NCBI GenBank assembly: GCA_019113165.1
Contig: DXHV01000060.1
Location: 1 to 64,000, forward strand
DNA length: 64,000 nucleotides
Direction of reading: 5' to 3'
DNA from: Candidatus Desulfovibrio intestinipullorum
Lineage (GTDB): Bacteria > Desulfobacterota > Desulfovibrionia > Desulfovibrionales > Desulfovibrionaceae
A program made the position numbers and the translations under genes. Position 1 is the stretch's first letter. Every line of letters begins with the position of its first letter. Positions 19,391 to 25,360 of the stretch are shown here, piece by piece. The notes below the pieces were generated by a model that was not told the DNA's origin, made no database searches, and saw nothing but the letters and a program-made list of their open reading frames with translations.

Positions 19391-19841
19391 AGCTATATCC
19401 TTGCAACTAATTCTTCGTCGTGCTTTTTCGGAGCATGGCAAAGGCAGTCTCGCGAAAGGCTTCAGGGCACGTCCCCTGCGGAGGTACAGTGAAGCCGGCC
19501 CCTCCGGTCTCCGTGCAAGGGGGCCGTCCCTGAAGAGAAGGGAGCGTCACACAGAAGGGCAGGGGCAGTGTGCTGCACGGTCTCCCGGGGGAAGGAACAC
19601 GGGGCAGCGGGCCTTCTTTTGTACTGAAAGTCGCCTGCCTGTGCAAGATGCACAAGAGCAGGAAAGGCAGGGATAAGGCCTGCATGCAGGGCTATTGCAG
19701 TCGTTTGTCCTGCCCTTTTGCAAGCCCTGTGCGCATGGGCATGGCCCTTGCGGGGACCTGGGGCAAGAAGAGTGTCTGCAAAGCCTGCATGCCGGGGGCA
19801 GGAGCTTCTGGCAGGAGCAGTCCCGGGCTTTTGTCCGCTGC

Positions 19842-19870
19842 TTGACAGGGCAGGTGGAAAGGTCTAGGTC
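19842..19870 (+). promoter_or_regulatory. Putative sigma70-type promoter of the FMN riboswitch transcript
   Basis: TTGACA - 17 nt - TAGGTC immediately upstream of the riboswitch. Confidence 0.45.
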
Positions 19871-19883
19871 TGAAGCAACATCG

Positions 19884-20052
19884 GTAAATTCTCAGGGCAG
19901 GGTGCAATTCCCGACCGGCGGTAAGTATGAGGCATGAACCACAAAGAAAGGTTGCTGCCATGTGCAAGCCCGCGAGCCTGTTTCAGGTGAAACAGTGCAG
20001 ATCTGGTGCAAGGCCAGGGCCGACGGTTAGAGTCCGGATGGAAGAGGATGGA
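19884..20052 (+). ncRNA. FMN riboswitch (RFN element)
   Basis: TCTCAGGGCAGGGTGCAATTCCCGACCGGCGGTAAGT...AGCCCGCGAGCC...GATCTGGTGCAAGGCCAGGGCCGACGGTTAGAGTCCGGATGGAAGAGGAT; ATTCTC/GAGGAT can form P1. Confidence 0.95.
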
Positions 20053-20323
20053 TGAGATGTACTCCGTACTGGTGATCCCTCGTGCAGAGCTCTGCGCAGT
20101 GATCTCCCCTGGCAGCGATCCCTTCTCGCGGCGATCGCTTCCTGGACGTGCATTGATGCCATTTTTGCTGCCCTAAATTCTTGGACAAGATTCGGAGACC
20201 AGGCATGCGCCAAGAGATTTTGGGTTCAGAACAGCAGAAGCAGACGAGCCAGACGAAGCAGAAGAGGCTGACGAAGACGGGAGACAACGTCTTCTTCCGC
20301 TGAAGACAGAACTTCAGGCAGAG

Positions 20324-20377
20324 CGTCCCTGAGAGGCAGAACCTTATGTTTCTGCCAGTGCAGGGCGTCTCCTTTTC
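20324..20377 (+). terminator. Terminator-like hairpin downstream of the FMN riboswitch
   Basis: CCCTG-agaGGCAGAA...TTCTGCCagtg-CAGGG followed by CGTCTCCTTTT. Confidence 0.4.
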
Positions 20378-20623
20378 GCGTGCCCTGATGCCGTTTCAGG
20401 CAAAAGGCAGTGCCGGCAGGAGAGGCCCCTTTGGACGAGCTGCTCTTGACGCCTGCCCGCCTGCTCCCCATATAGTACCGGGGCGCAGTCTGGCTGTGTC
20501 AGGAAAGCAGGGCCTTTTCCCTGAAGAGCGAACTGTTTTGAGAATGGCAGCACGACAGGCTGCCCTGCCTGCGGAGCATAACCACCCTTTTTCTTTTCTT
20601 CTCTCTTGTGCAGGAGTCTTGCA

Positions 20624-22366
20624 GTGAACGAACATGCTGTAGTTCTGGGCATTGATTGCGGTGGTACGCATACGGATGCCGTTGTCTGCGCGGGCAGACA
20701 TCTTCTTGCCAGTGCCAAGGTCGTCACGGATCACGACAATCTGCCGGGCTGCATAGCAAAGGTCCTGCAGGAGCTCGTGCAGGAGACGGATCGGGACATC
20801 CTGCAGAAGGTGGAGCGCATCACCCTGGGAACGACCCTGCTTGTCAATGCCTGCGTGCAGGGCCGGCTGGACAGGGTCGGACTTGCCCTGAGCGCAGGCC
20901 CGGGCCTGGCCCCGGACCGCTTTGCCCTGGGGCAGGACGTGTGCATTGTGCCAGGCGGCCTGGACCACCGCGGCGTGGAAGTGACGCCGCTGGAGACGGG
21001 TGTCCTGCAGAAGCAGGTGCGGGCCTGGCAGGAGGAGGGCGTGCAGGCCTTTGCCTGCGTGGGCAAATTCTCCCCGCGCAATCCCGCTCACGAGGAGCGC
21101 ATGGGTGCGGTTGTCACGGATCTCTGTGCGCAGCCTGCCCTGACCCTTGGCCATCATCTGAGCGGCGCACTCAATTTTCCCCGCCGCATTGCCACGGCCT
21201 ATTACAACAGCGCCAGCCTGCGCCTGCACAATGCCTTTGTGGACGCCGTGACGGCCGTCCTGGCAGATCTCGGCTGCAGGGCGCCGGTCTTTTTGCTGCG
21301 GGCCGACGGCGGCTCCATCCCCCTGCAGCGCTCGCGCCCCTATCCCGTGCACTCCCTGCTTTCCGGTCCGGCAGCAAGCGTCATGGGCGCCCTGGCCCTG
21401 ACACAGGATTTGGGATCGTGCAGCCTGCTTATGGACATAGGCGGCACCACGACCGACCTGGCCCTCTTTGTGGCAGGTTCCCCTGTCCTTGATCGCGAGG
21501 GCATGACCGTGCAGGGACGGCGCACCCTGGTACGGGCCCTGGCCACCCGCTCCATAGGCATAGGCGGCGACTCTCTCGTCAGCCTGCAGGAGGACGGGTG
21601 CGTGTGCACGGGGCCGCAGCGAATCGGACCTGCCATGGCCTTTGGCGGCACGCAGCCGACCCTGCTGGATGCCCTCAATGTGCTTAATGCCGAGGGATCG
21701 GAGCTGGGATCAGGGGATGTCTGCGCAGGCCGGACGGAACGCTCCCTTGCAGGTCTCACGGAACTGGGTGTCAGGTCCGGCAACACGGCACAGGAGCTCG
21801 CCCTGGCAGCCTGGCTTGATGCGGCCCTGAAGATTTCCCGGGCCATGCAGGACCTTGTGGACGAAATCAATGCCCGCCCGGTCTATACCCTGCGGGAACT
21901 CCTGGGCCACATGGACGTGCGGCCGCAGGGCATTCTCCTGGTCGGAGGTCCTGTGCACTGCCTGCACAGGCGGCTGCAGAGCTTTGTGCAGCTGCCCGTG
22001 GACCCCCTGCCAAGGGCCGATGTGGCCAATGCCATAGGAGCTGCCCTGACCAGACCTTCTGCCCAGCTGGAGGTCTACGCGGACACGGGCCGCAGGACAC
22101 TGCTTGCTCCGGCCCTGGATCTTCAGGAGGCACTGCCAAGGACGGCCACCCTGGACTACGTGAAGGAGCGGGCCCTGGCCCTGCTTGAAAGTCAGCTGGC
22201 AGAGGAGGGCATTGTCGATCTCCCTCTGGAAGTGGCCCAGGCCGACCTCTTTGCCACCCTGTCCGAGTCCGGTGCAGGGGCCAGGGACATGCGCGTGGCC
22301 TGCCAGGTTGTGCCGGGTCTTGTGCACGGCCTTGATCTCGGACCTGACCACGGCTCCGAAGCCTGA
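20624..22366 (+). CDS. Hydantoinase/oxoprolinase family protein
   Basis: GTG start; VVLGIDCGGTHTDAVV, ITLGTTLLVNACVQGR, LMDIGGTTTDLALF, SIGIGGDSLV ATPase-fold motifs of HyuA/oxoprolinase. Confidence 0.85.
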   Translation: MNEHAVVLGIDCGGTHTDAVVCAGRHLLASAKVVTDHDNLPGCIAKVLQELVQETDRDILQKVERITLGTTLLVNACVQGRLDRVGLALSAGPGLAPDRFALGQDVCIVPGGLDHRGVEVTPLETGVLQKQVRAWQEEGVQAFACVGKFSPRNPAHEERMGAVVTDLCAQPALTLGHHLSGALNFPRRIATAYYNSASLRLHNAFVDAVTAVLADLGCRAPVFLLRADGGSIPLQRSRPYPVHSLLSGPAASVMGALALTQDLGSCSLLMDIGGTTTDLALFVAGSPVLDREGMTVQGRRTLVRALATRSIGIGGDSLVSLQEDGCVCTGPQRIGPAMAFGGTQPTLLDALNVLNAEGSELGSGDVCAGRTERSLAGLTELGVRSGNTAQELALAAWLDAALKISRAMQDLVDEINARPVYTLRELLGHMDVRPQGILLVGGPVHCLHRRLQSFVQLPVDPLPRADVANAIGAALTRPSAQLEVYADTGRRTLLAPALDLQEALPRTATLDYVKERALALLESQLAEEGIVDLPLEVAQADLFATLSESGAGARDMRVACQVVPGLVHGLDLGPDHGSEA

Positions 22367-22408: not shown

Positions 22409-22891
22409 ATGGAAGTTGTTCTTTATGAGCCGGAAATCCCGCCCAATACCGGCAATATTGCCCGTCTGTGCGCCGTGACCGGCACAACGCTGCACCTCAT
22501 AGAGCCACTGGGCTTCAAACTGGAGGATCGCTATCTCAAGCGGGCAGGCCTTGACTACTGGCCCCACGTCAGCCTGCACGTCTGGCCGGACATGGCTCAT
22601 TTCCTTGCGGACCGTCAGGCCACACGTCCCGGCGCAAGGCTTGTCATCACCTCCTCGAAGAAGGGCGGTCAGCCCTGCCACCGCTTTCCCTTCCAAAGGG
22701 ATGACATCCTGATTTTCGGCAAGGAGACGGCCGGCCTGCCGGACGAGGTCCGCGATCTCTCGTCCCTGCATGTGCGCATCCCCATGCTGGCAGGACATGG
22801 CCGCTGCCTCAACCTGTCCACAAGCTGCGGCATCGTGCTCTACTTGGCCCTGTCCGCAAGCGGCATGCTGGACGGAGAGGACTGGCTCTAG
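22409..22891 (+). CDS. trmL: tRNA (cytidine(34)-2'-O)-methyltransferase, SPOUT class
   Basis: MEVVLYEPEIPPNTGNIARLCAVTGTTLHLIEPLGF...ILIFGKETAGLPDEV...LNLSTSCGIVLY. Confidence 0.95.
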   Translation: MEVVLYEPEIPPNTGNIARLCAVTGTTLHLIEPLGFKLEDRYLKRAGLDYWPHVSLHVWPDMAHFLADRQATRPGARLVITSSKKGGQPCHRFPFQRDDILIFGKETAGLPDEVRDLSSLHVRIPMLAGHGRCLNLSTSCGIVLYLALSASGMLDGEDWL

Positions 22892-22951: not shown

Positions 22952-23839
22952 ATGTACCTTGCCTTGCTCACCATATTCTGCCTGACCGTCTTTGCCGGCA
23001 ATTCCATCTTCTGCCGTGCAGCCCTGGTTACCTGCGACATGGGGCCCATGCTCTACACGGGCGTGCGCGCCCTGTCGGCAGCCCTCATCCTGGCAGCCCT
23101 GTGCTGCCTCCACATCATCAAGCCCCTTGCTCGTGAGCACACGCAGGGGGCGGTGTGGCGGGATGCCTGGCAGCAGAGTTCCTGGACCGGAGCCCTGGGA
23201 CTCTTTGCCTACATGCTCTGCTTCTCTCTTGGCTACGTGGCCATGCCCTCGGCCCCGGGCACCCTCATCATCAACATGAGCGTGCAGGTCAGCATGATTG
23301 GCTGGGGCATGCTGCACGGCCTGTATCCGAACAAAAAACAGTATCTGGGCTTTGCCATTGCCACGGCAGGCCTCATTATCCTGCTCTCTCCGGGCCTCAC
23401 GGCGCCGCCCCTCCTCCATTCCCTGCTTATGGGCGGATCGGGCTTTGCCTGGGGCGTGTTTACCGTGGCCGGCAGGGATGCCCGCTCCGCGGCCCTGGCC
23501 ACGGCGGGCAGCTTCTGGCGGGCCGCCCTTCCGGGTGCTGTCTGCCTTGCGGCAGGCCTGCTCCTTGAGCCGGGGCCCGCGCCCATGGCCTGGATCTTTG
23601 TCCTGGCCGGAGGCCTTGCCTCCTCCCTGGGCTACATTCTGTGGTACTCCATTGTCCCGCGCTATTCGCTGGTCAATGTGTCCATCATTCAGCTGGCCGT
23701 GCCTGTCATCACGGCCATACAGGGGGCGCTCTTCCTTGGGGAGGGCATTACCCTGCGCTTTGTGGTCGCAACCATCCTCATTCTTGGCGGCATCTGTCTG
23801 GCTCTCAGGGCCGGGGCAGCCCGTGCCGCCGGAAAGTAA
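22952..23839 (+). CDS. EamA/DMT superfamily transporter
   Basis: Multi-TM ORF with two EamA-like halves (AGNSIFCRAAL...; LGYILWYSIVPRYSLVNVSIIQLAVPVITAIQGALFLGEGIT). Confidence 0.85.
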   Translation: MYLALLTIFCLTVFAGNSIFCRAALVTCDMGPMLYTGVRALSAALILAALCCLHIIKPLAREHTQGAVWRDAWQQSSWTGALGLFAYMLCFSLGYVAMPSAPGTLIINMSVQVSMIGWGMLHGLYPNKKQYLGFAIATAGLIILLSPGLTAPPLLHSLLMGGSGFAWGVFTVAGRDARSAALATAGSFWRAALPGAVCLAAGLLLEPGPAPMAWIFVLAGGLASSLGYILWYSIVPRYSLVNVSIIQLAVPVITAIQGALFLGEGITLRFVVATILILGGICLALRAGAARAAGK

Positions 23840-23928: not shown

Positions 23929-25143
23929 ATGCCTCTGTGCAGCGTTGAAGAAGCCATTGCCGAAATCAAGAAAGGGAAGATGATCATTCTTGTGGACGAT
24001 GACGACAGGGAAAACGAAGGCGATCTCACCATGGCCGCCGAGTTTGTCACCCCTGAGGCCATCAATTTCATGGCTCATCACGGGTGTGGTCTCATCTGCC
24101 TGCCCCTGGCCCCGGAATTGTGCAACAAGCTGAATCTTCCGCCCATGACAGAGCGCAACACCTCGCTCTATCACACCAACTTCACCGTCTCCATCGAGGC
24201 CAGGGAAGGGGTGACCACCGGCATTTCCGCTGCGGACCGTGCCACCACCATTCTGGCTGCCGTGGCCGATGACGCCCGCCCCGAGAGCCTGGTGACGCCC
24301 GGCCACATCTTCCCCCTGCGTGCCCGTCCCGGCGGCGTGCTCGAGCGCACCGGCCAGACCGAAGGCTCCGTGGATCTTGCCCGGCTCGCCGGCCTCAAGC
24401 CTGCGGCTGTCATCTGCGAGGTCATGAAGGAAGACGGCACCATGGCCCGCCTCCCCGATCTGGAAGTCTTTGCCGAAAAGTACGACCTCAAGATTGCCTC
24501 GGTGCGCGACATCATTCGCTACCGTCTCGACCATGGCCAGGTGTCCGTGCGCTGCGACGCCAAGGCCCACCTGCCCACCATCTACGGCGACTTCACGGTC
24601 TATGCCTACGAGAGCAATACCGAGCGCGGCACCCATCTGGCCCTGGTCAAGGGCGATCTCTCCGGGCCCGAGCCCGTGCTTGTGCGCGTACACAGCCAGT
24701 GCCTCACCGGTGACGCCCTGGGCTCCCTGCGCTGCGACTGCGGCGGCCAGCTCGGCGCTGCCCTGCGCCAGATCGAGCGCGAAGGACGAGGCTGCCTTGT
24801 GTACATGCGCCAGGAAGGACGCGGCATAGGCCTTGCCAACAAGATTCGCGCCTATGCCCTGCAGGACAAGGGCTATGATACCGTGGAAGCCAACAAGATG
24901 CTGGGCTTCCCGGCCGATCTGCGCGACTATGGCACAGGCGCCCAGATTCTTGTGGACCTTGGTATCCACAAGATCCGTCTGCTCACCAACAATCCCAAGA
25001 AGATTGTGGGCCTGGCCGGCTACGGCCTGGAAATCGTGGAGCGCGTGCCCATTGAAATGGAAGCCTGCACGGACAACCTCCATTATCTGGAAGTCAAGAA
25101 GGAGAAGATGGGACATATCCTGACCGGCATCCGCTGCCACTAG
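23929..25143 (+). CDS. ribBA: Bifunctional 3,4-dihydroxy-2-butanone-4-phosphate synthase / GTP cyclohydrolase II
   Basis: [43 protein letters not shown] and [24 protein letters not shown]...[18 protein letters not shown]. Confidence 0.98.
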
Positions 25144-25238
25144 TGTCTAATTACAAAAATCCATCATGCTACATGCGTCTGAAAATACAGTGATTTTCAA
25201 TCGATAGCAGTATGTGGACTAATAAAATTAAACACTAG
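25140..25238. mobile_element. Candidate MITE-like / IS-remnant element bounded by CTAG
   Basis: CTAG-TGTCTAATTA...TAAAATTAAACA-CTAG; terminal inverted repeats TGTcTAATT/AATTaAACA with further TCCA match; internal TGAAAAT/ATTTTCA hairpin; AT-rich in GC-rich context. Confidence 0.5.
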
Positions 25239-25360
25239 ACGCTGCAGAACCGGAATATTGTTGAGGGGGGGGAAGGAGCTTCCCCCCGAGGAGCAGGGCG
25301 GGCGAAGAAAAGACTTGAGACACAGGTTTTTTGTTCACCCGCCCTTTTGTGATCAATGCT

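Follow-up and report, generated by a model that had tools for sequence, protein, structure and literature searches.

An FMN riboswitch aptamer (RFN element) in the window, a 64,000-nucleotide stretch of DNA from Candidatus Desulfovibrio intestinipullorum, probably serves as the FMN-sensing leader for an operon whose last gene is ribBA, with the intervening hyuA-like and trmL-like genes carried along. The element (19884-20053, plus strand) was an end-to-end match to the Rfam family RF00050 (model positions 1-138; 101.4 bits, E 2.3e-22; gathering score 66.2 bits) and is an ordinary member of that family, in agreement with the initial annotation, which placed a complete RFN element near 19884-20052. 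A search of the whole assembly (2.77 Mb, 98% complete) revealed this to be the sole RFN copy. The annotation had also raised the question of whether ribDE or ribH carry an RFN element of their own; the ribD-ribE-ribH cluster sits on another contig and no RFN element was identified there in the same Rfam search. Profile searches detected a single PF00926 match in the genome, making ribBA the only DHBP synthase gene found, and no stand-alone ribB was identified.

The RFN is followed by a spacer of approximately 570 nt and then by hyuA, trmL, an EamA-family transporter gene and ribBA (Table 1), all on the plus strand and separated by gaps of 42, 60 and 89 nt, so that the previously described order, orientation and close spacing held. 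The hyuA gene starts with GTG at 20624, preceded by AGGAG at 20612, and ribBA lies four genes and nearly 4 kb downstream of the RFN on the same strand. The spacer had been described as having no recognisable flavin gene; its length was confirmed, but it is not featureless, since it contains blocks conserved with the sister species G099, among them a 32-codon ORF. The single gap ORF scanned (20346-20627) matched no Pfam family, and a terminator scan listed no convincing intrinsic terminator between the RFN and hyuA.

Table 1. Features of the riboswitch unit and the downstream gene cluster (positions in the window).
Feature	Coordinates	Strand	Evidence
Promoter-like sequence of the riboswitch unit: TTGACA (19842-19847), 17 nt, TAGGTC (weak -10)	19842-19870	+	Sequence inspection
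FMN riboswitch aptamer (RFN)	19884-20053	+	RF00050, 101.4 bits; core 98% identical in G099
P1 3' strand GAGGATGG, alternatively pairs with 20159-20166	20044-20051	+	Predicted fold, both species
Second platform helix, 5' arm GATGTACTCC, pairs with 20144-20154	20056-20065	+	Predicted, both species
Second platform helix, 3' arm GGACGTGCATT	20144-20154	+	Predicted fold
CCATTTTT, alternative partner of the P1 strand, end of platform	20159-20166	+	Predicted fold; within a block 88% identical in G099
GGAG, ribosome-binding site of leader ORF, 7 nt before ATG	20194-20197	+	Sequence; retained in G099
Leader ORF, 32 codons: MRQEILGSEQQKQTSQTKQKRLTKTGDNVFFR	20205-20303	+	G099 shares its start and stop, and its two ends are conserved
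Conserved hairpin over end of leader ORF, no T run after it	20273-20297	+	-10.8 kcal/mol in a 30-nt piece; near-identical in G099
Promoter-like block before hyuA: TTGACG, 19 nt, TATAGT	20446-20476	+	Lies in 20435-20480, which is 80% identical in G099 and flanked by regions of 59% and 56% identity
hyuA-like gene (hydantoinase/oxoprolinase family)	20624-22366	+	Pfam PF05378 (Hydant_A_N) and PF01968 (Hydantoinase_A)
trmL-like tRNA methyltransferase gene	22409-22891	+	Pfam SpoU_methylase; TIGR00185 under its cut-off
EamA-family transporter gene	22952-23839	+	Pfam PF00892
ribBA	23929-25143	+	Pfam PF00926 and PF00925

Comparison across the genus revealed an RFN element in 36 of 79 genomes, and 31 of these also had a stand-alone ribB, which follows the RFN directly in 30 of them; in G017 contig ends separate the two. 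The remaining five RFN genomes, which belong to a small clade, had no stand-alone ribB, namely this genome (G000), G099, G071, G077 and G089, although the loss of ribB is less certain in G071 and G089, whose assemblies are 71% and 84% complete. All five have the RFN inside the ribBA cluster, and it is this observation that favours the operon reading. The RFN is directly before ribBA in G071, G077 and G089, with an ORF of 16-18 codons between; the order in G077 and G089 is hyuA-trmL-RFN-short ORF-ribBA, while the stretch read for G071 did not include hyuA or trmL. G000 and G099 share the arrangement in which the RFN is upstream of hyuA-trmL-EamA-ribBA. This distribution suggests that the RFN may have taken over control of ribBA once its usual target, ribB, was lost. 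A tree of the locus proteins grouped the genomes as (G030,(G016,(G000,G099))) with (G077,G089), and neither RFN nor stand-alone ribB was found in G030 or G016; the relocation may have been a single move or more than one gain.

The hyuA loci of G030 and G016 were also searched for an RFN or a relic of one, and none was found, with the G016 locus broken by a contig end. In G030 the place of this genome's RFN unit is occupied by an opposite-strand long ORF between ilvE and hyuA (L091:2896-4593), which on inspection resembled a MATE-type efflux transporter. In G016, unrelated DNA runs from trmL to the contig end (L092:8616-9951; this stretch also contained a sub-threshold HgcC RNA match of 36.7 bits against 50) and ribBA is on another contig, so this locus is broken or rearranged. 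Arrival of the RFN on a plasmid or phage was considered as well and rejected; among the matches listed, only part of the aptamer was covered.

The initial annotation regarded flavin control of HyuA and TrmL as unusual, and our data do not support a flavin role for either. hyuA was found in 35 of 37 genomes tested, mostly with no RFN nearby, and many RFN-less loci of the genus have hyuA and trmL adjacent or close, ilvE divergent and ribBA downstream. Because the hyuA-trmL-ribBA order is found in RFN-free loci too, the comparative data suggest that hyuA and trmL are passengers.

To assess conservation, the locus was aligned with that of G099, a sister species with the same gene layout. The RFN promoter region (19835-19883) was identical at 48 of 49 positions, and its TTGACA also precedes the RFN in G071, G077 and G089. 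The aptamer core was 98% identical, compared with 53% for the P2 extension. The variable region of the platform was 36% identical and unalignable between the helix arms; identity then rose to 88% over 20148-20204, and to 92% and 97% at the two ends of the short ORF, before falling to 59% past its stop, rising to 80% in the block 20435-20480, and falling again to 56% up to hyuA. Four-fold degenerate sites of the neighbouring genes were 83% identical overall (hyuA 73%, ribBA 94%). The RFN could in principle be a relic of the lost ribB that now regulates nothing, as the lack of a stand-alone ribB and the resemblance of the G099 leader ORF to the RibB N-terminus (P = 0.006) might indicate. A functionless element would not be expected to keep a near-invariant promoter region and aptamer core amid barely alignable spacers and 83% four-fold identity, and we regard a relic as very improbable. 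The leader ORF of this genome did not resemble the RibB N-terminus (P = 0.86), and the other three leaders gave no support either, which leaves G099 as the only case in which a ribB remnant was supported. Separately, ribBA was far more conserved with G099 than its neighbours (97.6% of bases); local recombination or codon selection are possible explanations.

Folding of the leader predicted an expression platform shared by this genome and G099. With the P1 strand left free and folding extended to the T tract, the P1 3' strand (20044-20051) paired with CCAUUUUU (20159-20166) at a probability of 0.98 in both species, enclosing the second helix; these helices rest on two sequences with minimal covariation. 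This pairing excludes P1, and FMN binding should therefore release CCAUUUUU. The leader as a whole was not unusually stable compared with shuffled sequences (z = -0.6 and -0.3), so overall stability provides no argument. The same fold would suit an intrinsic terminator switch, in which FMN frees the segment ending in CCAUUUUU and polymerase stops at approximately 20166 with the leader ORF uninvolved, as an inner hairpin of approximately 10 pairs remains in the bound model once P1 forms. However, this hairpin ends approximately 11 nt before the T tract, and without a T tract immediately behind the inner helix this is not a standard terminator; the site near 20166 was also not listed by the terminator scan. 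Such a switch differs from the operon-leader reading in mechanism only, and we consider it decidedly unlikely.

Masking of a start codon, as seen at ribB, was also examined. At most RFN-ribB loci, CCTGATGC before ribB is complementary to the ATG-CATCAG start region, as expected for translational control, and the CTGATGC/GCATCAG complementarity is retained at the short ORFs of G071 and G077. Inspection of 20054-20230 in this genome revealed no CCTGATGC/GCATCAG masking, and fold proxies indicated no change between states in the accessibility of the leader ORF GGAG and ATG, and this mode of control was rejected here.

A short ORF with a ribosome-binding site follows the aptamer and is conserved in the two species compared, with 32 codons in this genome and 44 in G099 (a net difference of 36 nt, in frame). 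The few substitutions in its aligned ends are all non-synonymous and thus give no support for selection on the protein; what is conserved may be the RNA. No convincing relatives of the small protein were identified in approximately 200 family genomes, in an insensitive search that missed the ORF's own copy among the matches listed. The hairpin over the ORF end (20273-20297) was rejected as an intrinsic terminator, as no T run follows it.

The initial annotation posed two options, a long operon with ribBA at its end or a separate short transcript. The comparative evidence sided with the operon and the short transcript was the less favoured, although it retains some standing because the RFN is separated from hyuA by the conserved leader ORF and a promoter-like block. 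According to this alternative, control by the RFN extends only to the 32-44 codon ORF, which would give a small protein or regulatory RNA, and a separate promoter near 20446-20476 drives hyuA-trmL-EamA-ribBA. The conserved leader ORF with its ribosome-binding site, the hairpin at its end and the promoter-like block beyond would all fit, but the hairpin lacks a T run, no small-protein relatives were found in a search of low sensitivity, and the position of the RFN would be a coincidence, yet five of five non-ribB RFN elements sit in the ribBA cluster. We therefore judge it unlikely, while giving it some weight. A related possibility, that the RFN governs a product confined to this lineage, either a small protein or a regulatory RNA freed from the leader, and that FMN would influence flavin supply both by way of this product and by way of ribBA, appears distinctly doubtful. 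The block at 20446-20476, which was not listed by a promoter scan allowing spacers of 16-18 nt, could provide a basal flavin-independent hyuA-ribBA transcript or could separate these genes fully from the RFN unit.

Taken together, the operon reading is supported by an aptamer well above threshold with a conserved core, by a layout shared with G099 in which the genes are co-directional with short gaps and no convincing terminator was listed, and by a platform helix that is predicted with high probability in both species and excludes P1. It is weakened by the promoter-like block between the leader ORF and hyuA and by the distance of nearly 4 kb to ribBA. We infer that the RFN and ribBA are co-transcribed. 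When FMN is low, the P1 strand would pair downstream and the leader would be permissive; when FMN is high, P1 would be stabilised and CCAUUUUU released from its 3' strand. The rearranged leader would then reduce translation of the leader ORF, transcription into the operon, or both, and less ribBA would be made. That the switch works in this direction and that the leader ORF is translated are likewise inferred, and the leader possibly acts via the translated ORF.

Rho could mediate the effect of lost leader translation. Rho-dependent FMN riboswitches precede E. coli ribB and C. glutamicum ribM, and FMN-dependent loss of translation can give premature termination (both as cited in PMC11647493). 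The leader of G077 is C-rich and G-poor (41 C to 15 G in 80 nt) and would be suitable. Unlike these systems, the leader in the window has no C-rich stretch or bias of C over G, and searches of this assembly (98% complete) for Rho_RNA_bind and Rho_N gave no rho gene, which makes the Rho step weak for this genome. rho was present in G099 and in 17 of 20 genus genomes tested, with G030 and G089 also without a match; its absence here is probably an assembly gap, but may be a true loss.

RFN elements precede ribB in E. coli and in Oleidesulfovibrio alaskensis G20 (PMC11124144 for O. alaskensis), and a survey reported that most proteobacteria have a single FMN-controlled gene, ribB or ribH2 (PMC3766115). 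Most RFN-bearing members of the genus have exactly this proteobacterial RFN-ribB arrangement. The element in the window resembles it in aptamer family, in being the single RFN and in its probable target, 3,4-dihydroxy-2-butanone 4-phosphate synthesis. It differs in lacking a stand-alone ribB, in having ribBA, far downstream behind a short ORF, as its first flavin gene, and in the absence of the ribB-type start masking. The loci of G071, G077 and G089 are similar in that these genomes have no stand-alone ribB and place the RFN within the ribBA cluster, followed by a short ORF, but there the RFN stands immediately ahead of ribBA instead of upstream of hyuA, and the start masking kept by G071 and G077 and the C-rich leader of G077 are both unlike this genome. 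The succession of riboswitch, short ORF and operon also recalls Mycobacterium tuberculosis, where an Mbox before pe20 (PMC12810186) and a B12 switch before ppe2 (PMC11260477) control upstream ORFs and are reported to act on the ORF and to influence the genes downstream (PMC12810186, PMC11260477), with loss of translation acting through Rho (PMC12810186). Those cases involve another ligand and aptamer, and translation and termination were measured there, whereas our comparison is of sequence. A literature search of partial coverage identified no report of an RFN element placed four genes upstream of ribBA with a short ORF following it, and the locus is an unusual arrangement of known parts.

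If the operon reading is correct, one genus shows a change of riboswitch target in which the sensor persists, the original gene vanishes and the sensor comes to head the operon of the replacement enzyme, once from nearly 4 kb away and across unrelated genes. The loci would form a natural series from RFN-ribB through RFN-short ORF-ribBA to RFN-short ORF-hyuA-trmL-EamA-ribBA. The case also cautions against assigning a riboswitch to the nearest gene, as an automatic call would make hyuA flavin-regulated.

Two minor features were observed at the margins of the cluster. A MITE-like element of approximately 100 bp with inverted ends (CTAGTGTCTAATT...) occupies 25140-25240 (L112:130-228), with the ribBA stop codon, TAG, provided by its left end; G016 has a similar element upstream of ribBA. 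On the other side, a minus-strand promoter-like sequence (TTGCAC-N17-TACAAA, 19619-19651) faces ilvE and is conserved in G099, G016 and G030.
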